From positions 1,054,001 through 1,118,000 of the forward strand of contig NZ_CP028858.1 of NCBI RefSeq assembly GCF_003058365.1: a stretch of DNA of 64,000 nucleotides, written 5' to 3'. The notes under the pieces were generated by a model that saw only the letters and a program-made list of their open reading frames with translations, was not told the origin of the DNA and made no database searches. Positions within the stretch are counted from its first letter, which is position 1. Every line of letters starts with the position of its first letter. The position numbers and the translations under genes are program-made. Below are positions 10,369-23,605 of the stretch, piece after piece. The DNA is from Halococcoides cellulosivorans (GTDB lineage: Archaea; Halobacteriota; Halobacteria; Halobacteriales; Haloarculaceae).

Positions 10369-10379
10369 GCGGTGGCGTG

Positions 10380-10493
10380 TCAGGCGACGATCTGGAGGGT
10401 TCGACTCACCCAGGCGTCGACCGGTTCGGGGACGCGGTCGGTGAGTGGGTCGAGTTCGGCGACGTCGATGGCGCGCGTGCGGAGCGCGAGGAC
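10380..10493 (-). pseudogene. orphan copy of the flippase gene's 3' end
   Basis: The last 37 codons and stop of a flippase-like gene without any upstream part. The translation VLALRTRAIDVAELDPLTDR- followed by VPEPVDAWVSRTLQIVA differs at only about 7 of 37 positions from the end of the intact flippase at 11388-12896. The homology begins just before the stop codon and is lost at about 10493. Between the two copies lies a toxin-antitoxin module. It is therefore either the remnant of an older flippase gene or the duplicated end left by insertion or exchange of the module. Confidence 0.85.
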
Positions 10494-10528
10494 TGATTCG
10501 ACGACCGTGGGCTGATCGGTCGGCGTGA

Positions 10529-11017
10529 TCAATCTGTGCGTGCGTCTCGAAGGGCTCTCTCGAAGAGGTCGTCGCTGATCCAGAATCCCGCGTCCCGGAG
10601 AGCGTCGAGTTCGCCCTGTAGGTCGGCAACTGGGCCGTCCACGGCGGCGCGGATCAAAATTCCGATCGCTCCCGTCACGTCGAGGTCGTGACGGCGGGCG
10701 ACCCGACGACCTTCGCGTTCGTCGATCAAGACCCGGTCGGCGTCGATGTCGAGAGCGTGTGCAATCGCGGCGGCTTCGCCGCTGTCGAGACGGGTCGTCA
10801 GTTCCCGAACAAGACTGGATCGATCGACCGGGACGACCGTGACGTCGTCGCTTCGTCGAAACGCCTGAATTTCGCGGAGTCCGTCTTCCCCAGCGGTGAG
10901 TTCTGCCCAGACTGGCTGGGGAATTGTGATAGTGCCGAACTGTCGGGTGAGACAATCGAGACGCTCGATCAGTGCGAGATTGAGGAGTGGCGAGGAATAG
11001 TGTGACGACGTGCTCAC
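10529..11017 (-). CDS. DUF3368 PIN-like toxin, first acidic residue replaced
   Basis: A 162-residue PIN-like protein paired with a UPF0175 antitoxin. It shows SSPLLNLALIERLDCL at the N-terminus, IPQPVWAEL (second acidic residue), LDSGEAAAIAHA and DADRVLIDEREGRRVARRHDL, all typical of DUF3368. The family's first acidic or Asn residue just before the SPL motif is Tyr here. It begins with a GTG at 11017 that overlaps the antitoxin stop by four bases. The UPF0175/DUF3368 pairing is an established type II toxin-antitoxin layout. Whether the nuclease is active is uncertain. Confidence 0.85.
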   Translation of the reverse strand: MSTSSHYSSPLLNLALIERLDCLTRQFGTITIPQPVWAELTAGEDGLREIQAFRRSDDVTVVPVDRSSLVRELTTRLDSGEAAAIAHALDIDADRVLIDEREGRRVARRHDLDVTGAIGILIRAAVDGPVADLQGELDALRDAGFWISDDLFERALRDARTD

Positions 11018-11262
11018 TCTCGGGCATAGTCGAGGTCTTCGTCGAGTTCCTCGCTCGTGTAGTGGCGCTCGATCTGGCGGTCGCCCAAGAGGCGGTGGAA
11101 CTCTCGGGCAGAGTGGTCGGCCAGTTGTCGGGCCTTTCCGAACGAGAGGACACCGCGGTCGTACAGCGAGACCGCGAGTTCGGTCTTCATCGTAGCGTCT
11201 CGGTCTGGTTCGGGAAGCTCCATGGCCTCGTACACACCGTCGGGAATCTCGATGTCGGCCAT
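11014..11262 (-). CDS. UPF0175 antitoxin
   Basis: An 82-residue protein of the UPF0175 family (MADIEIPDGVYEAMELPEPD...). The core ELAVSLYDRGVLSFGKARQLADHSAREFHRLLGDR is a helix-turn-helix-like segment typical of the family, followed by an acidic tail. It is the upstream partner of the DUF3368 protein, overlapping it by four bases. The ATG at 11262 starts exactly at the family's N-terminus; the upstream extension of the open frame was rejected. It is related to the UPF0175 protein at 18323-18616. Confidence 0.88.
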   Translation of the reverse strand: MADIEIPDGVYEAMELPEPDRDATMKTELAVSLYDRGVLSFGKARQLADHSAREFHRLLGDRQIERHYTSEELDEDLDYARE

Positions 11263-11387
11263 ATCGGTCGTTCGTTGTCCGCTCGCTTGAGTCTTCGGCC
11301 CACGGATCGCGGCGCGAAGATCACGAGCGGTCCGAACGAGGTGAGTCTCCCGTGGTCGGGTCACTGTCGTCGATCGGTGGTCGCGTG

Positions 11388-12896
11388 TCAGGCGACGATC
11401 GACAGCGTTCGACTCACCCAGGCGTCGACCGGTTCGGGGACGCGCTCGACGATCGGGTCGAGTTCGTCGACGTCGATCACTCGCGTTCGCAGTACGAGGA
11501 CGCCGTAGACGACGAAGCCCACGGGCGGGACGACGACCAGCGAGAGGATCGAGTGGGGGATGGCCAGCGAGAGGCCGACGATCACCGGCGCGGAGACGCC
11601 GGCGGTGATTGCAATCCGCGCGAGACGGAGGTCACGGAAGGGGTCGTAGCCGATCCGCCGGGCGGCGATGCCGTGGAAGACGAGCATCGAGCCATAGCCC
11701 ACGCTGGTGGCGACGCCAGCGCCGACCATGCCGTACTGGGGGATCAAAAGGAGGTTCAAGACGAGGTTGATCGCCGCCGCCGCGCCGGTGGCGACGATCA
11801 GCGGGCGCAGCGTCCCCTTGCCCTGGCCGACGGCCATGATCGGCCGCGTGACCGCGAAGCCGAGCGTGCCCGGGAGGAGCAAGAGGAGCGGCAGCACCGC
11901 CTGCTGGAAGTCGGGCCCGTAGTAGATCGGCACGAAGTCCGCCGCGAGCGATCCGAGGCCGAGGATGAGCAACAGCGTGAACGTGACGTTGAAGCGGGTC
12001 AGTTGTGAGATCATGTCCGAGACCTCGTCGCTTCCTTTGGTCGTCCACATCTCCGAACTCGAATGCAGGAGGACGGTCTGGAGCGCGCGCGGTGCGAACC
12101 AGAGGAACTGGGCGATGACCAGCGCGGCCTTGTAGAACCCGGCCTGGTCGCTGCCCGTGAGTGGTCGAATCAGGAGGATGTCGACGTGGTACAGCGAGAA
12201 GATCAGGAAAATTAATACAATGCTCAGTCCATTAAATGCTAATAGCTCTTTCCTCGGGAAGTCATCTGGGAGTTTTTTAAAAATATATTTTATATTAATG
12301 TGTCTTGATAATAATATGTACCCAATTGTGCCAACGATTGTGAATGCGAAAATGCGGCCAATTAACACCCCAACAACGTCTAACCCCAATAATGCAAGAC
12401 AGATCGCTGATAAGCCAAATAAAAACTTTCGAAGGACAACAAGTGGTTCACTTTGGTGTTCTAAACTAAGTCCCATTAATCCCCCACGAGAAGTATTGCT
12501 GTATTGTTTCGCCAGCAAAAGTATTCCCACAAGTATGAAGTATAGGTCGAATGGTGGGCCGAAAATAAAACTAGACAAACCAAACCAAGATATGAGTGAA
12601 TATATTATTAAAGCAAATCCGGCTAATATAGCACCTACACGGAGGTAATATCCTATGACATACTCTGTCCAGTTTGCGAATTCCCGGTTTTCGGCAATGA
12701 ATTTGCGAGTCCCGTCGAATGTGCCTGCATTCACAAGTATAAATGAAACTGCCGTTAACGATAATAAGAATGAGTAATCTCCATAACCACTACTTCCGAG
12801 TAATCTCACCAATATCGGCGTGATCACGAACATCAAAACTAAGTTGGATACTTTCGCCCCGAAAATAGATATAAATCCTTTTAAAATAGTAGCCAT
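11388..12896 (-). CDS. polysaccharide flippase (Wzx/AglR-like), mosaic gene
   Basis: A 502-residue, roughly 12-14-helix MATE/MVF-type flippase that would move a lipid-linked glycan across the membrane. The start MATILKGFISIFGAKVSNLVLM and the mid-protein TGSDQAGFYKAALVIAQFLW are typical. The coding sequence changes abruptly: residues 1 to about 230 (12896 down to about 12205) are AT-rich with codons such as ATA and TTA, and residues after about 230 are GC-rich like the rest of the chromosome. The open frame is intact across the join. This implies homologous recombination inside the gene. Its last 37 codons are duplicated at 10380-10493. Confidence 0.93.
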   Translation of the reverse strand: MATILKGFISIFGAKVSNLVLMFVITPILVRLLGSSGYGDYSFLLSLTAVSFILVNAGTFDGTRKFIAENREFANWTEYVIGYYLRVGAILAGFALIIYSLISWFGLSSFIFGPPFDLYFILVGILLLAKQYSNTSRGGLMGLSLEHQSEPLVVLRKFLFGLSAICLALLGLDVVGVLIGRIFAFTIVGTIGYILLSRHINIKYIFKKLPDDFPRKELLAFNGLSIVLIFLIFSLYHVDILLIRPLTGSDQAGFYKAALVIAQFLWFAPRALQTVLLHSSSEMWTTKGSDEVSDMISQLTRFNVTFTLLLILGLGSLAADFVPIYYGPDFQQAVLPLLLLLPGTLGFAVTRPIMAVGQGKGTLRPLIVATGAAAAINLVLNLLLIPQYGMVGAGVATSVGYGSMLVFHGIAARRIGYDPFRDLRLARIAITAGVSAPVIVGLSLAIPHSILSLVVVPPVGFVVYGVLVLRTRVIDVDELDPIVERVPEPVDAWVSRTLSIVA

Positions 12897-16818: not shown

Positions 16819-17187
16819 CGTTGCTTTTTGGCTGTGGATCTGTATTTGTCTTCCGCATTCTCAATAATGGACTCGCGAGCGGTGGGTCTTAGAACAATGA
16901 GATCTGCCTTGGAACTCGGATCCGCACGTCTGGCGAGAGGTATCGCGTGCTCTGTCTCCCATCCTGGTCGGCCCGACGCTCGACCGTCTCGACGAGCACC
17001 GCGGGACCCGAGCGAGGACTCAAGGCAGTTCTCCCCGCTCGAACCCACACCAAGCGACTCCATCGCCTCGAAGGCCCTCGTGGCACCACAACTGCGAGAC
17101 ACGATGTCCCCCGGGTCGGAACCATCGACGAGGGCCACTTCGAGGGTGGAGCAGTGACTACCCGCTCGGGTCCGCTGGCGTCCTGAC
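16819..17187. other. intergenic stretch with a possible gene tail and direct repeat A
   Basis: About 370 bases with no intact gene. Reading minus, the last 30 codons before the glycosyltransferase start (16815 to about 16905; ADLIVLRPTARESIIENAED then KYRSTAKKQR) look coding and end four bases inside the next gene, as an operon neighbour would. Upstream of that the frame loses coding character, so this may be the stump of a deleted gene. Repeat A (16983-17017) lies within. Confidence 0.45.
16983..17017 (+). repeat. direct repeat A
   Basis: 35 bases that match 19165-19199 with two mismatches. The shared core starts CGTCTCGACGAGC and continues through CCGCGGGACCCGAGCGAGG. It belongs to the same family as copies B (17625-17659) and C (19175-19209). 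Copies A and B bracket a small membrane protein gene. Confidence 0.8.
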
Positions 17188-17400: not shown

Positions 17401-17747
17401 ACCCAGTATACGCGGGAGGACCCCACATAAGTATGAGTGACCACAGGGTCGGTGGGCACACGATACCATCGAGACAGTCGACGAGTCGCCGGGCCCAGAC
17501 GATCCGATGGAATGACGGACGATGTCTCGGAGCGAGTCACGACCGGCCCGAGTACCGTCCTCGATCCGTCACGGGACGCGTGATTGGTCCTCACGAGCCC
17601 CGTGGACCAGGTCGGTGACCGCCGCGAGCGCCGCGGGACCCGAGCGAGGGTGTTCGAGGCCGACCACCCGACTCGAACCCCTCACGAAAGACGACCCGAT
17701 CCCTTCGAATAACACTGAATAGGATCGAATACATACTGATACACACG
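17401..17747. other. intergenic stretch with direct repeat B
   Basis: Roughly 350 bases between a minus-strand small membrane protein and a plus-strand regulator. No intact gene was seen. It contains repeat B (17625-17659). The final part (17700-17747) is AT-rich relative to its surroundings and probably carries the promoter of the downstream regulator. Confidence 0.6.
17625..17659 (+). repeat. direct repeat B, flanks a toxin-antitoxin cassette
   Basis: 35 bases (starting CGAGCGCCGCGGGACCCGAG and ending TGTTCGAGG) identical to 19175-19209. Together the two copies bracket the winged-helix gene and the UPF0175/DUF3368 pair. Sequences on either side of the two copies differ. Confidence 0.88.
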
Positions 17748-18322: not shown

Positions 18323-18616
18323 ATGATCGACGTCGACGACACGATCGACGGCCTTCGCGAGGTCGGTGCCTACGACACCGACGCGGAGGTGATCGAGGAC
18401 GCCATTCGAACCCTCTTGCGGACGAAGCCGGAACTTCGGACCGAACTCGCGGTCGAGCAGTACCGCTCGGGCGGCGTCAGCCTCAACCGCGCCGCCGAGA
18501 CCGCCGGGATGAGTCCGACCGCGTTCCGCGAGCTCCTCGCCGATCGCGGCGACCGCCGACCGGCTGGATTCCTCTCCGAGAGCGACCGCGACGATCGACT
18601 CGACGATCTCGAATGA
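18323..18616 (+). CDS. UPF0175 antitoxin
   Basis: A 97-residue UPF0175 protein (MIDVDDTIDGLREVGAYDTD...). The family core ELAVEQYRSGGVSLNRAAETAGMSPTAFRELLADRG is clear, with a helix-turn-helix-like pattern, followed by an acidic C-terminus for toxin binding. The stop overlaps the next start as ATGA, so toxin and antitoxin are translationally coupled. It has an upstream AT-rich element (GACAATTTAAGGG at 18289-18301), about 25 bases before the start, consistent with a leaderless haloarchaeal promoter. Confidence 0.88.
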   Translation: MIDVDDTIDGLREVGAYDTDAEVIEDAIRTLLRTKPELRTELAVEQYRSGGVSLNRAAETAGMSPTAFRELLADRGDRRPAGFLSESDRDDRLDDLE

Positions 18617-19128
18617 CGCTGGTCGATAACAACGTCTGTTCCAGCCTCGCGAAGATCGACCGGCTGGAGCTGCTCCCGACCGTCTTCGAGAGCGTCGCCA
18701 CCACGCCCGCCGTCGTCGAGGAGTTCCACCGCGACGAGGTGAGCGGCTACGCGTTCGTCGATCGCATCGACGAGGTCGAGGCTCACGCTGGCGGCTGGCT
18801 CGACACGATCACGCCCACCGAGACCGAACGCACGCGAACCGACGAGATTCTCGATCGATCGCTCTCTCGCGTCGACGCCCAACTGATCGCGATCGCGGAG
18901 GTCCGCGACGAGCGATTGCTCACCGACGACGGGCACGTCCACACCATCGCATCACACCGTGGCGTCGAAATCGTCGATCTCGTCGTCCTCCTCCGGGCGG
19001 CCTGCGAACGCGACGCGATTACGTCCGCCGAAGAGCTCCGGACCGTCCTCGCCGACCTCCGTCGGGAAGACCACTACGAGTTCGCGACGGACGACGAACA
19101 GTACCTGTTCGAAGCGTTTGAAGAGTGA
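18613..19128 (+). CDS. DUF3368 PIN-like toxin
   Basis: A 171-residue PIN-like nuclease partner of the UPF0175 antitoxin. The first acidic residue is present (Asp5 in MTLVDNNVCSSLAKIDRLELL), followed by PAVVEEFHRDEV (second acidic residue) and SRVDAQLIAIAEVRDERLLTDDGHVHTIA with further Asp residues. The ATG at 18613 overlaps the antitoxin stop by four bases. The open frame extends further upstream, but that part is antitoxin-antiparallel reading and was rejected. The intact acidic site contrasts with the DUF3368 protein at 10529-11017. Confidence 0.86.
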   Translation: MTLVDNNVCSSLAKIDRLELLPTVFESVATTPAVVEEFHRDEVSGYAFVDRIDEVEAHAGGWLDTITPTETERTRTDEILDRSLSRVDAQLIAIAEVRDERLLTDDGHVHTIASHRGVEIVDLVVLLRAACERDAITSAEELRTVLADLRREDHYEFATDDEQYLFEAFEE

Positions 19129-19174: not shown

Positions 19175-19209
19175 CGAGCGCCGCGGGACCCGAGCGAGGG
19201 TGTTCGAGG
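19175..19209 (+). repeat. direct repeat C, flanks a toxin-antitoxin cassette
   Basis: An exact copy of repeat B (17625-17659), placed 46 bases after the stop codon of the DUF3368 gene. A 14-base piece of the same repeat (CGAGCGCCGCGGGA) recurs at 20106-20119 within the hairpin array on the other side of the next toxin-antitoxin pair. Confidence 0.88.
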
Positions 19210-19243: not shown

Positions 19244-19546
19244 TCAGGCCGACTCGTCCCGCCAGGACCCCCAGACCTCGCGATACCGACCCAACTCGCG
19301 ATACTCTCGTGTACGCTCGAACACGTCGATGGCGTACAGCGTCTCGCTGTCCTTGTCCCAGTCGATCAGCACACGAAAGTCACCGACGCGGAGCTTGTAC
19401 CCGGGGTGGTCTTTCAGCCGATCGAGAAAATGACCCGGGAACTCCAGCACGTCGTCCAGTTTCGAGACGATGCGCTGCGCATCTTCTCGCTCCAACTGCT
19501 CCAGCGTCTCCTGAATCGTCGCCGTATATTCCAGGTCGTGGGCCAC
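19244..19546 (-). CDS. relE: RelE/ParE-family toxin
   Basis: A 100-residue RelE-fold ribosome-dependent mRNA nuclease candidate. It shows the helix QRIVSKLDDVLEFPGHFLDRL, then KLRVGDFRVLIDWDKDSETLYAIDVFERTREY, the conserved strand block of the family with basic residues (KLRVGDFRV) that bind RNA. Length and pattern are normal. Its start lies three bases after the upstream antitoxin stop on the same strand. The module is placed between repeat C and the hairpin array. Confidence 0.9.
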   Translation of the reverse strand: MAHDLEYTATIQETLEQLEREDAQRIVSKLDDVLEFPGHFLDRLKDHPGYKLRVGDFRVLIDWDKDSETLYAIDVFERTREYRELGRYREVWGSWRDESA

Positions 19547-19549
19547 GCC

Positions 19550-19819
19550 TTACTCCTCGTCGAGTCCGAACTGCGAGGTCATCTCGTCGTGACTGACCGT
19601 GCGGCCCGCCGCGACGTCGGCGTACCCTTCCGAGACCCCCTCCTGGGCCCCGGGCGTCAAGATCGGCTCCGTCGTGTCCCGGAGCACTTCACGCACGAAC
19701 TCGGAGCGATTCGTGTACTGCAGTTCGTCCGCCAGCTCGTCGATGTCGTCGAGGAGTCGCCGCGGAACTTTGACGTTCAGCTTTACCATGTCCCCGTCGT
19801 CCGAGGCGTCGTCGGTCAT
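19550..19819 (-). CDS. ribbon-helix-helix antitoxin
   Basis: An 89-residue antitoxin paired with RelE. It carries the ribbon-helix-helix core KLNVKVPRRLLDDIDELADE followed by YTNRSEFVREVLRD, then an acidic toxin-binding tail (DEMTSQFGLDEE). The ATG is at 19819; the ATG at codon 11 (MVKLNVKVP) is an alternative. It probably represses its own promoter in the AT-poor region upstream. It belongs to the same broad class as the antitoxin at 21482-21763 but the sequences differ. Confidence 0.88.
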   Translation of the reverse strand: MTDDASDDGDMVKLNVKVPRRLLDDIDELADELQYTNRSEFVREVLRDTTEPILTPGAQEGVSEGYADVAAGRTVSHDEMTSQFGLDEE

Positions 19820-20272: not shown

Positions 20273-21418
20273 ATGCGGATCGCGTTCTTGTCAAATGTCG
20301 TCTATCCCTGGGTCAACGGAGGCGCAGAAAAGCGCATCCACGAGATCGGTAGTCGCCTCGCCGAGGACCACGCAGTCACGGTCTACCCCCGCAAGTTCTG
20401 GGACGGACCCGACGAGATCGACCACCACGGCATGACCCTTCGCGCGGTCGCCCCCGAGACCGACCTTTACGTCGAGGAGGGCCGCCGCTCGATCACCGAG
20501 GCGATCGACTACGCCGCCCGCCTCACGCCGCCACTCCGCCGCTCGATCGACGACCACGACGTCCTGGTCGCGAGCGTCTTCCCCTACTTCCCCGTCCTCG
20601 CCGCCAGCCTCGCGCGCCTGCGCACCGACACCCCGCTGGTCACCACCTGGCACGAGGTCTGGGGCGAGTACTGGGACGACTACCTCGGTCGCCTCGCGAT
20701 CGGCGGCCGCGTCACCGAACACGTCACCGCGCGGGTCCCTCAACACCCGATCGCGGTCTCGGGGGTCACCGCCGATCGACTCGCTCAACTCGGGTCCGAC
20801 CGCGCGATCCTCCCGAGCGGTCCCGACCGCGCAGACATCGCGGTCGTCCCGAACGGCATCGACGTCGCACAGGTCCGCGAGACCGACCCCGCCGACGATC
20901 CCGCCGATGTCCTCTACGCGGGCCGACTCATCGCAGACAAGCGCGTCGACCGCCTGATCGACGCGTTCGAACAGGTCGCGAGCGACGCCACCCTCCGGAT
21001 CGTCGGTGACGGGCCCAAACGCGACGAACTCGAACGCCAGGCCCGCCGTTCCCCCGCGAGCGATCGCATCGAATTCACGGGCTTTCTCGACGAGTACACC
21101 GACGTGCTCCGCGAGATGCGCGCCGCCCCGATTTTCGCCTCCCCCTCCACGCGCGAAGGCTTCGGGATCACCTACGTCGAGGCGATGGCCGCCGACTGTA
21201 CCGTGATCGGGGCCGACCACCCCGAGTCGGCCGCCGGTGAGGTGATCGCCGACGCGGGCTTCGTCCCCGAACCGACGACCGATGCGCTCGCAGACACCCT
21301 CGATCGTGCCCTGTCGGGCGAACGCCCCCCGACCGATCCGACCGCCCGCGCCGCCGAGTACGACTGGGACGCCATCGCTCGAATGGCCGAACGCGCCTAT
21401 CGCGACGCGATCGGGTGA
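20273..21418 (+). CDS. GT4-family glycosyltransferase
   Basis: A 381-residue GT-B glycosyltransferase (MRIAFLSNVVYPWVNGGAEK, VTTWHEVWGEYW, VVPNGIDVAQV, VLYAGRLIADKRVDRLIDAF, and the donor motif FASPSTREGFGITYVEAMAADCTVI). It belongs to surface-glycan assembly by context. Codon use is GC-rich like the backbone. Its last 40 codons (TLDRALSGERPPTDPTARAA then EYDWDAIARMAERAYRDAIG) recur as orphan fragments at 22112-22237 and 22883-22945, each time beyond a toxin-antitoxin module. The start ATG lies at the fold start. Donor sugar unknown. Confidence 0.93.
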   Translation: MRIAFLSNVVYPWVNGGAEKRIHEIGSRLAEDHAVTVYPRKFWDGPDEIDHHGMTLRAVAPETDLYVEEGRRSITEAIDYAARLTPPLRRSIDDHDVLVASVFPYFPVLAASLARLRTDTPLVTTWHEVWGEYWDDYLGRLAIGGRVTEHVTARVPQHPIAVSGVTADRLAQLGSDRAILPSGPDRADIAVVPNGIDVAQVRETDPADDPADVLYAGRLIADKRVDRLIDAFEQVASDATLRIVGDGPKRDELERQARRSPASDRIEFTGFLDEYTDVLREMRAAPIFASPSTREGFGITYVEAMAADCTVIGADHPESAAGEVIADAGFVPEPTTDALADTLDRALSGERPPTDPTARAAEYDWDAIARMAERAYRDAIG

Positions 21419-21481
21419 GGGAGAATCTCACCTCGCAAACGGTCCCAAACACAGAAGGGCCCAGAACCCGAATACGAACGT

Positions 21482-21763
21482 ATGTCGAACGCAGATACGA
21501 GCGGGTCGTCCGATCCCGACAAGACCAACATCAACGTCCGCTTGACGGAGTCGTTTCTCGGAGACATCGACGCGACGTGGCGTGAGGAAGGCTTCAACTC
21601 GCGAAGCGAGTTCATCCGTCATGTCCTCCGTGATGCCGTCAAACACCCGGGGTTGAGTCGTGAAGCCTGGAAAGATATTGTGGCGACCGAGCACCAGCGT
21701 CGAACCGGATCGCCCGAGACGCTGACGCGCGAGGACGTTCTCGACCGGGACGATGACGAGTGA
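21482..21763 (+). CDS. ribbon-helix-helix antitoxin
   Basis: A 93-residue antitoxin. The ribbon-helix-helix core is NINVRLTESFLGDIDATWRE then GFNSRSEFIRHVLRDAV, followed by an acidic tail ending DVLDRDDDE. It overlaps the RelE toxin start by 11 bases, a usual coupling. It lies 63 bases after the glycosyltransferase stop. An AT-richer stretch (CCCGAATACGAACG, 21468-21481) precedes the start and may hold promoter elements. It presumably binds there as autorepressor with the toxin. Confidence 0.88.
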   Translation: MSNADTSGSSDPDKTNINVRLTESFLGDIDATWREEGFNSRSEFIRHVLRDAVKHPGLSREAWKDIVATEHQRRTGSPETLTREDVLDRDDDE

Positions 21764-22037
21764 CGAGTGGGGGTGGCGACTGTATCCACGCGCTCGCCAG
21801 CAGTTCGAGGCGCTCGACGATCACGCTCGCGACCGAATCGAATCCAAACTCGAAGAGATCGTGACCGACGAGTGGCGCGACCCCGATGCGTACGTCGAAC
21901 CACTCACAGGCGTCCCGCACTCCAAACTCCGGATCGGACAGTTCCGGCTCGGCTGTGAACTCGACCACGACGCCAGCGAGATTCAAGTCTATACGATCGA
22001 TCGCCGGGAAAATGCCTATCAACCTGGTGACGACTGA
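21753..22037 (+). CDS. RelE-family toxin
   Basis: A 94-residue RelE-fold toxin (WGWRLYPRARQQFEALDDHA then RDRIESKLEEIV). The conserved beta-strand block is VPHSKLRIGQFRLGCELDHDASEIQVYTIDRRENAY, with basic residues for RNA binding. It overlaps its antitoxin by 11 bases. Downstream, 75 bases after the stop, begins an orphan copy of the preceding glycosyltransferase's 3' end, so the module sits between two copies of the same gene tail. Confidence 0.88.
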   Translation: MTSDEWGWRLYPRARQQFEALDDHARDRIESKLEEIVTDEWRDPDAYVEPLTGVPHSKLRIGQFRLGCELDHDASEIQVYTIDRRENAYQPGDD

Positions 22038-22111
22038 ATCGAGTGGCGATTCACTCAGTATTCTGTGCTTCGTGGACGGGTCGTTTATTCCGTGAGTCGT
22101 TGGGACGCTTT

Positions 22112-22237
22112 GCGAACACTCTCGATCCCCGTGCCGGCGAGCGCCCCGCGATCGACCCGACCGAACGCGCCGCAGAGTACGACTGGGACGCCATTGCTCG
22201 AATGGCCGAACGCGCGTATCGCGACGCGATCGCGTGA
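22112..22237 (+). pseudogene. second copy of the glycosyltransferase 3' end
   Basis: The last 41 codons and stop of a glycosyltransferase like that at 20273-21418, without its body. Translation ANTLDPRAGERPAIDPTERA then AEYDWDAIARMAERAYRDAIA aligns with the intact C-terminus with one residue gap. The nucleotide match is near-perfect over the final 75 bases. Sequence upstream of 22112 is unrelated. It is interpreted as debris of a former gene or as the duplicated boundary of the toxin-antitoxin cassette before it. Confidence 0.88.
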
Positions 22238-22264
22238 GAAGGGACCCTCGACGTCACGTGCTGA

Positions 22265-22522
22265 TTACCGGTGAGTGTCGATCCACTCGCAGAACGCCTC
22301 GAACTCCGCCGCGCCGGCATCGTCAGCGATGTCGTGCAGTGTTCCGATGCTGATCGAGTCGTGCGCTGGAACGGTAACGACTCGAACGTCCGTCTGCTCG
22401 TGGCTCTCGGGTGGATCCCACCGCAAGATGAGGTGGTCGCCAGTCGTGCGGACGTGCCGAAACCCGCCGACGGTGACCAGAACTTTCTACCCGTCTTCGA
22501 CAGAGAAGTCTCGCGTCACCAT
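22265..22522 (-). pseudogene. hicA: HicA-like toxin broken by an in-frame amber codon
   Basis: Reading from the ATG at 22522, the frame gives MVTRDFSVEDG, then TAG at 22489-22487. It then continues KVLVTVGGFRHVRTTGDHLI- and LRWDPPESHEQTDVRVVTVP, AHDSISIGTLHDIADDAGAA to the stop at 22265. The content is a complete HicA-type small toxin (the TTGDHLIL segment holds the catalytic His). One CAG-to-TAG change explains the stop. No good start lies after it. The toxin is therefore probably inactive while its antitoxin is intact. Confidence 0.82.
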
Positions 22523-22524
22523 CG

Positions 22525-22791
22525 TTACTGCAAGACATCGGGAAGATCGTTATTCTGCGATCGAGCGACGTCCGGGTCGACACCCAGCGCCTCCAGGTCC
22601 TCGTCGGTCGGGGCCCGCCCACCGTCGCCCTCGACGACCGCATCCAGGGTGTCGAGCACCTCGCTGCGAGTGTCCCCCTGAGCAGTGACACCGACGCGGA
22701 GATCACGAGCGGTCCACTGCCCGTCCGGATTTTTCAGCAAGCGGATCTCCCGGTCGGGAGCGTCCGCGCTGCCCGGGTCGGCTTGTGCCAT
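22525..22791 (-). CDS. hicB: HicB-like antitoxin
   Basis: An 88-residue protein located just upstream of the broken HicA gene, two bases away. The sequence DREIRLLKNPDGQWTARDLR then VGVTAQGDTRSEVLDTLDAV fits the partial RNase-H-like fold of haloarchaeal HicB antitoxins (a strand pair, then an ARDLRVGVTAQG turn and a helix). It is acidic at the C-terminus. The ATG at 22791 was chosen over an upstream ATG at 22908, because the extra 39 residues overlap the orphan glycosyltransferase tail on the other strand. Confidence 0.82.
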   Translation of the reverse strand: MAQADPGSADAPDREIRLLKNPDGQWTARDLRVGVTAQGDTRSEVLDTLDAVVEGDGGRAPTDEDLEALGVDPDVARSQNNDLPDVLQ

Positions 22792-22882
22792 ACACCACGG
22801 TACTGTATTAAGAAGCAAAACGGTTCGGGAGCCTGGACGGCGGTCCCGGACTGTGGTCGAGGATTGTCTCGGAGTATCGGCC

Positions 22883-22945
22883 CAGTTCGACTGGGACGCC
22901 ATCGCCAACGTGGCCGAACGCGCCTATCGCGACGCCATCGCATGA
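22883..22945 (+). pseudogene. third copy of the glycosyltransferase 3' end
   Basis: The last 20 codons and stop of the same glycosyltransferase tail (QFDWDAIANVAERAYRDAIA). They are 85-90% identical to the ends at 21357-21418 and 22175-22237. Similarity to the second copy continues beyond the stop for about 20 bases (a shared CG-CGTCACG stretch after the stop). It lies beyond the HicAB module, completing the alternation gene, module, tail, module, tail. Confidence 0.85.
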
Positions 22946-23026
22946 GGAGAGATCTTCGGCGTCACGCTACCGTCCGGTCGACCGCTCCACCCCAGCACTC
23001 AGGACCGTCCCGCCCCAATCACAGCT

Positions 23027-23605
23027 ATGTGCGGCCGATTCGGACTGTTCGCTGATCCCGCGACGATCGCTGAGCGGACGGGCACTCGCGTGCCCGACGC
23101 CTACACGCCGAGCTACAACCTCGCACCCGGCGATCGGGTGCTCGCAGTCGAGCCTAGCGAGACCGCGACACTCACCCGGTGGGCCGAGCGGTTCAACGCC
23201 CGCATCGAGACTGCCGTCGACGAATCGGCGTGGGCCGAGCCCTGCCTCCTCCCGACCTCGGGATTCTACGAGTGGCGACCCGACGGCCAACCGGTCCGGA
23301 TCTATCGTGAGGGCGACCCGATCCTCGCGCTCGCGGGCCTCCGCCTTCCCGATGGCGTCACCGTCCTGACGACCGACGCGCGCCCACCGGTCGACGCGAT
23401 CCACGATCGGATGCCCGTCACACTCGCTCCCGACCGCGAAGCCGACTGGCTCGCGGACCGCGATCGCGAGGTGATCACCGCCGACCCGGCGACCGATCTG
23501 GCGATCGACCCCGTCGACCCCCGCCTGGGCGATCCGACCGTCGACGGCCCGGCCCTGATCGACGGCCCGGATCACGAACAGCGTGATCTCGACGCGTTCG
23601 GCTGA
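23027..23605 (+). CDS. SRAP-domain protein (YedK/HMCES-like), compact
   Basis: Protects abasic sites in single-stranded DNA by forming a thiazolidine crosslink through Cys2. The start MCGRFGLF, the SYNLAPGDRVL motif, FNARIET, the GFYEW Glu and the IHDRMPV His are all present, so the active site is complete. At 192 residues it is about 30 shorter than most family members: the usual long segment between YNxAPG and NARxET (carrying RWGLIPSW) is cut to LTRWAERFNAR. No SOS genes are nearby. Start ATG is fixed because Cys must be residue 2. Confidence 0.94.
   Translation: MCGRFGLFADPATIAERTGTRVPDAYTPSYNLAPGDRVLAVEPSETATLTRWAERFNARIETAVDESAWAEPCLLPTSGFYEWRPDGQPVRIYREGDPILALAGLRLPDGVTVLTTDARPPVDAIHDRMPVTLAPDREADWLADRDREVITADPATDLAIDPVDPRLGDPTVDGPALIDGPDHEQRDLDAFG

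Follow-up and report, generated by a model that had tools for sequence, protein, structure and literature searches.

Repeated gene 3′ ends flank toxin–antitoxin modules and other small inserts in Halococcoides cellulosivorans, and may mark cassettes that spread without an integrase of their own

In Escherichia coli, the icdC sequence is the displaced native tail of the icd gene, lying beyond e14, a 15-kb prophage that carries its own integrase; as at the loci described here, the gene bears a substitute tail and the native one is found past the insert. Homology-facilitated illegitimate recombination, in which the second end joins with little or no homology (mostly 3–10 bp), usually leads to deletion. 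That type of recombination has been proposed for the T6SS effector arrays of Vibrio, where old 3′ ends have been shifted back (PMC5361080). There, as appears to be the case here, a module with a homologous anchor shifts the old 3′ end downstream and repetition builds arrays, but in Vibrio the toxin gene is itself displaced, whereas here housekeeping and polysaccharide genes seem to serve as the anchor and to regain a tail. Restriction-modification (R-M) genes of Helicobacter have been described as inserting with long target duplication (Nobusato et al. 2000, as cited in PMC3031569 and PMC1643837), and share with our loci an addiction-type gene pair, flanking direct repeats of the target, and the lack of a transposase. 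Our cases differ in being haloarchaeal, in involving mostly toxin–antitoxin (TA) modules, in always using gene or tRNA 3′ ends in H. cellulosivorans, and in that the copies, unlike simple duplicates, appear to have accumulated their differences as coding sequence. Single-crossover integration of recircularized fragments during E. coli conjugation has produced end duplications of 109–950 bp, with a duplication present in 56 of 60 clones (PMC3240628); it likewise duplicates the anchoring gene end, but with a cloned gene end in laboratory E. coli, whereas our examples are natural and apparently between diverged lineages. Finally, integron cassettes with TA pairs (PMC2654758) show the same site–cassette–site–cassette–site order, although our inserts contain no integrase and what recurs between the cassettes is the tail of one particular host gene.

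The window analyzed here is a 64,000-nucleotide stretch of the H. cellulosivorans genome (contig NZ_CP028858.1, positions 1,054,001 to 1,118,000), and its features are listed in Table 1. An initial annotation had described the 3′ end of a GT4 glycosyltransferase (GT) gene, whose protein shares 57–68% identity with haloarchaeal orthologues, as present in triplicate and split by RHH/RelE-like and HicAB-like pairs, and nucleotide alignment of the tails bears this out. Tail 1 (21285–21419) and tail 2 (22106–22238) are 86–88% identical over ∼123 aligned bases (145 bits), with 95% identity in the final 60 bases, and tail 3 (∼22880–22952) is 82–86% identical to the other two over 73–83 bases (80 bits); identity across the tails is flat, with no gradient toward the stop codon. 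Tail 2 had been delimited as the last 41 codons: the repeat is real, and its homology extends slightly further 5′, to ∼44 codons with indels. Past the stop codon, tails 2 and 3 agree at 16 of 21 bases, in keeping with the annotation, whereas tail 1 has only 1–6 in common with them. The observation that only the terminal part of the gene is repeated also holds genome-wide: just two matches are confined to the GT C terminus, tails 2 and 3 themselves (protein E 2.3e-13 and 3.6e-4), which excludes chance similarity. As had been noted, there is no integrase in the vicinity.

The inserted pairs are putative TA modules, assigned from family matches to RHH_1 and DUF7387 here and to UPF0175 and DUF3368 at the flippase locus described below. 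The annotation's module names stand for the RHH and DUF7387 proteins and less firmly for their partners. The RelE-like protein (21753–22037) has no family match in Pfam or NCBIfam, so its name derives from its size and its pairing with the RHH_1 protein; homologues occur in 148 of 243 genomes of the order, and an RHH-like gene adjoins the homologue at L289, L299, L305, and L295 among the loci listed. The early in-frame TAG in hicA indicates that the HicAB-like module is probably non-functional.

Table 1. Features of the GT and flippase loci, in window coordinates
Feature	Coordinates	Strand	Basis or remark
Intact GT4 glycosyltransferase gene, 381 aa	20273..21418	+	Pfam PF00534 Glycos_transf_1, E 3.9e-29
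Tail 1, 3′ end of the intact GT4 gene	21285..21419	+	Reference copy for alignments
RHH antitoxin-like gene, inserted module 1	21482..21763	+	PF01402 RHH_1, E 2.8e-4
RelE-like toxin candidate, inserted module 1	21753..22037	+	Size and pairing with RHH_1 protein
Tail 2, probable displaced GT 3′ end with ∼20 post-stop bases common to tail 3	22106..22258	+	
hicA, inserted module 2, in-frame TAG at codon 12	22265..22522	-	PF07927, E 0.0037, part after the stop
hicB-like antitoxin gene (DUF7387), inserted module 2	22525..22794	-	PF24113, E 1.7e-19
Tail 3, shorter probable displaced GT 3′ end, adjoining the downstream SRAP gene	22880..22966	+	
SRAP (HMCES/YedK) gene, first past the array	23027..23605	+	PF02586, E 1.9e-29
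Flippase-like polysaccharide gene, intact tail 11379–11513	11388..12896	-	Weak NCBIfam HfsF match
UPF0175 antitoxin-like gene, behind the flippase gene	11014..11364	-	PF03683, E 2.7e-22
PIN-type toxin candidate (DUF3368), behind the flippase gene	10529..11017	-	PF11848, E 8.9e-10
Probable displaced flippase 3′ end with ∼10 post-stop bases	10371..10505	-	123 bases at 85%

Two further observations concern the DNA just 5′ of the GT gene. Another ParE/RHH pair lies there (19244–19819, minus strand), which brings the count to four TA-like pairs in 5 kb. Three copies of a 35-base sequence, CGAGCGCCGCGGGACCCGAGCGAGGGTGTTCGAGG, two of them identical, lie at 16993–17027, 17625–17659, and 19175–19209; they surround another UPF0175 gene and its neighbor (18323–19128) and are perhaps a worn set of tail-type scars.

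A repeat scan of the window revealed a second case, in which the terminal 123–142 bases of the flippase-like gene recur past a UPF0175/PIN pair. The H. cellulosivorans genome is a single 2.72-Mb contig; scanning less than half of it (1.264 Mb), with genes called by a simple GC3 heuristic and with repeats below ∼45 bits or with many indels escaping detection, we found nine tail-repeat insertions at eight loci, the GT locus counting twice. Besides the GT and flippase loci, the inserts are an alpha/beta hydrolase gene at purQ, a gene for a small membrane protein at a GT-like gene, a PAS/GAF sensor gene plus HalOD1 at dnaJ, an HTH gene plus a PIN-like gene without Pfam match at an XPB-like helicase gene, and a membrane protein gene at a DRG/Obg-type GTPase gene; at a tRNA-Leu gene (L135, 1679454–1684567), the 3′ end is repeated at 87% past a 1381-aa Eco57I-like R-M gene. 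None of the inserts, that of tRNA-Leu included, encodes an integrase; only the genes named are present, in 0.6–4.8 kb of DNA as compared to the 15 kb of e14 with its integrase. All nine remnants lie downstream of the live gene on the same strand, and they are uniformly short (∼20–50 codons). Tandem paralogues and intragenic repeats aside, the scan returned no comparable duplications of gene heads or middles. Upstream of one channel-like gene (L262, 755885–758190) lies a decayed copy of its tail, which is probably the relic of a paralogue and not the scar of an insertion.

The same scan applied to 400 kb from each of two other haloarchaea (G019 and G022) found no gene-tail duplications, and 49 GT-region loci (711 kb) gave no clear ones. 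At the H. cellulosivorans rate, the probability of no insertions in 0.8 Mb is ∼0.003; thus either the insertion rate differs between species or the sampled regions differ.

To examine TA association across the order, we fetched 90 loci centered on RelE-like, UPF0175, or DUF7387 genes and screened the 87 outside H. cellulosivorans for direct repeats that span the module and score 60 bits or more, with 116 loci centered on purQ, helicase, dnaJ, or GT4 genes as controls. Such a repeat was present at 18 of the 87 TA loci and at none of the controls (P = 8e-8, for a single set of loci and thresholds chosen within the same analysis), a contrast to which more frequent insertion of small accessory genes in general, and not TA modules alone, may contribute, since the control genes are larger and mostly housekeeping. 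Two positives (L325 and L365) overlap at one locus, leaving 17 distinct among the 18. The repeat takes in the 3′ end of a gene at no fewer than four of the 18 (L289, L297, L299, and L318). The L299 pair, 145 bp at 99% identity, would fit in-place duplication equally well, and a query for its empty site found no match in same-genus genomes. The pattern for which the annotation proposed a route of TA spread is strongly associated with these modules but not specific to them, given the hydrolase, sensor, membrane protein, and type IIG-like R-M genes among the inserts.

The annotation had suggested seeking strains in which the GT gene has one tail and no module; relatives of that kind, with one tail or no insert, were found for purQ and for a kinase gene. 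In 9 of 29 relatives purQ is followed by a convergent rSAM gene, at a distance of 236–501 bases in six of the nine, and no relative carries a purQ tail fragment; in H. cellulosivorans the rSAM gene lies past the hydrolase gene and the remnant. The kinase gene has a single tail match in three genomes of genus g2 (G161, G213, and G217), with no RelE match beside it among the matches listed. In the same-genus genomes G001 and G020, the kinase gene and an RHH/RelE block are colinear at 91%, and a second kinase-gene tail follows the block in G001 only; the remnant could have been lost from G020 by later deletion. Together with the eight loci above and the cases in other genera, these relatives uphold the annotation's view that cassettes come in at the ends of genes and leave the terminus duplicated. 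For the GT gene itself, 49 orthologue loci and eight longer regions contain no extra tail fragments, the SRAP/TA synteny beside it is not conserved in relatives, and a search for the best match of the tails to orthologues indicated no clear donor. The genus of H. cellulosivorans is represented in the genome sets searched by this species alone.

Differences between tail copies carry information about how the copies arose. If a tail were duplicated in place and one copy then decayed neutrally, the fraction of differences at third codon positions would be 0.39–0.48, according to simulations under several settings. The pooled tail copies have 79 of 128 differences at third positions (0.62; P ≤ 0.001 against this null), and the helicase (16/21) and DRG (13/15) pairs each reject it alone; the G001 copies have 9/9. 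By the same count, third positions account for 11 of the 12 differences in the E. coli icd/icdC pair. The GT locus shows a weak bias (9/15 and 6/10; P 0.1–0.2 each) that is compatible with the pooled result; for the dnaJ, flippase, and L297 copies a clear bias is lacking, which would be expected should remnants go on to decay once displaced. The third-position excess implies that both tails of many pairs diverged as functional gene ends, and hence that one of the two came with the insert. The copies thus appear largely to have diverged as working genes in separate lineages, judging from their sequences. The duplicated termini of the annotation are real, then, but look less like a simple target duplication than like a donor tail and the native tail that it displaced.

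We consider it on balance probable that each remnant is the former 3′ end of the host gene, displaced by a foreign homologous 3′ end together with its downstream neighbor. Donor DNA would bring the 3′ end of a gene plus that neighbor (at the GT locus, a TA pair) and recombine additively with the host gene. The incoming tail would recombine by homology, leaving the gene intact with a donor tail, and the other end of the foreign DNA would be joined within the old tail, leaving the cassette and a short remnant; this could happen by illegitimate joining if the DNA were linear, or the DNA could be circularized and integrated by one crossover. At the GT locus, the HicAB-like module would have entered first, giving rise to tail 3, which is the shorter remnant and adjoins the SRAP gene, the hicA gene being broken. 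The RHH/RelE-like module would then have entered within the remaining tail and produced tail 2, as suggested by the post-stop bases that tail 2 shares with tail 3 and by their difference from tail 1. The third-position bias being weak here, a donor origin of the live GT tail is suggested by the other loci. Donor-like tails and the colinear block of G020 at the kinase locus are consistent with homology at one end, and the events show duplication rather than deletion, as in most clones of PMC3240628. Counting against displacement are the uniform shortness of the remnants, although joining at random could produce far longer remnants, and the lack of clear microhomology at the one junction inspected, that of L289. 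The annotation had suggested an undescribed route; as a kind it is not entirely without precedent, given long target duplication, homology-facilitated illegitimate recombination, and icd/e14.

An alternative that we regard as unlikely overall is long target duplication, in which some staggered insertion process duplicates 50–500 bp in place and the downstream copy decays. A gene would survive such an event only if the duplication passed its stop codon, so that selection would explain why only tail duplications persist. The anatomy is identical to that of the Helicobacter R-M genes, as cited from Nobusato et al. (2000) in PMC3031569 and PMC1643837: direct repeats of tens to hundreds of base pairs flank the inserts, relatives have a single copy at the empty site (purQ, and the kinase gene in the three g2 genomes), and an R-M-like gene is among the inserts here. 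The near-identical L299 pair fits as well, and in-place duplication may have occurred at some loci, this one for example. Yet derivation of both copies from one target is rejected by the pooled third-position test, most strongly at the helicase, DRG, and G001 pairs although individual loci vary, and G020 lacks a second copy despite its colinear gene and module.

Less likely again is site-specific integration of the icd/e14 kind, by which an element would supply a replacement tail through a tyrosine recombinase acting in trans or since lost. The anatomy and third-position pattern are those of icd/icdC, and one of our cases lies at the 3′ end of a tRNA-Leu gene, a classical target. However, the two marks of tyrosine recombinases at gene 3′ ends, an encoded integrase and an identical crossover core, are both lacking in the inserts and loci examined (shared core or motif across loci, P = 0.44), and each locus uses the tail of its own gene, which makes the targets too many for one recombinase. 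That the tails are what is left of tandem paralogues, a second and third GT gene that lost all else, seems very improbable: there are tandem paralogues elsewhere in the genome, and the channel-like gene with its upstream tail copy is such a candidate, but the GT orthologue loci examined show neither additional tails nor a full-length GT gene at the position of tail 2 or 3 (the finding that the annotation had named as favoring paralogues), the remnants are always same-strand downstream tails with no comparable heads, and purQ is single-copy with a conserved neighbor. Coincidental low-complexity similarity, which has nothing but the GC richness of this DNA in its favor, we reject given the scores of 80–145 bits, the protein E of 2.3e-13, and the 0/116 controls.

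Elsewhere in the order, TA arrays are punctuated by a conserved site of ∼40 bases, CTACTAGTAGnnnnTCGCCCGGTAGTGTnnCGGGCGTACA, comprising a palindrome and a hairpin, in the order TA–site–TA–site (L334, L325/L365, L333, and L324); it is also found at L301, L326, L330, L358, and L367. The site occurs in 38 of 243 genomes of the order, the 38 representing 16 genera, a reversed-pattern control giving zero, and often in 2–6 copies per locus in one orientation. At up to three mismatches it is absent from the H. cellulosivorans genome, and it has no match in Rfam, PLSDB plasmids, or IMG/VR. In the nine genomes checked, no PF00589 integrase lies within ∼39 kb of the arrays, which are possibly integron-like TA arrays.

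More broadly, we offer as a tentative reading, about which we remain more doubtful than about displacement itself, that haloarchaeal TA modules are integrase-free cassettes that stack into arrays and have as portable docking tail the 3′ end of whichever gene they follow, and that a related class may use as its dedicated site the conserved ∼40-base sequence CTACTAGTAG...TCGCCCGGTAGTGT..CGGGCGTACA, which interrupts TA arrays in many genera. If so, the tail would travel with the module and replace the host tail harmlessly, and successive modules would stack. The tail of a flanking gene would be both entry site and scar, a testable answer to the question of recombinase-free spread of chromosomal TA modules. 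The signature is searchable: a spanning direct repeat with third-position-biased differences would date and polarize insertions. The spread of TA modules among haloarchaea would thereby be tied to the additive recombination proposed for R-M genes and for Vibrio effectors, and such cassettes may spread without an integrase of their own.
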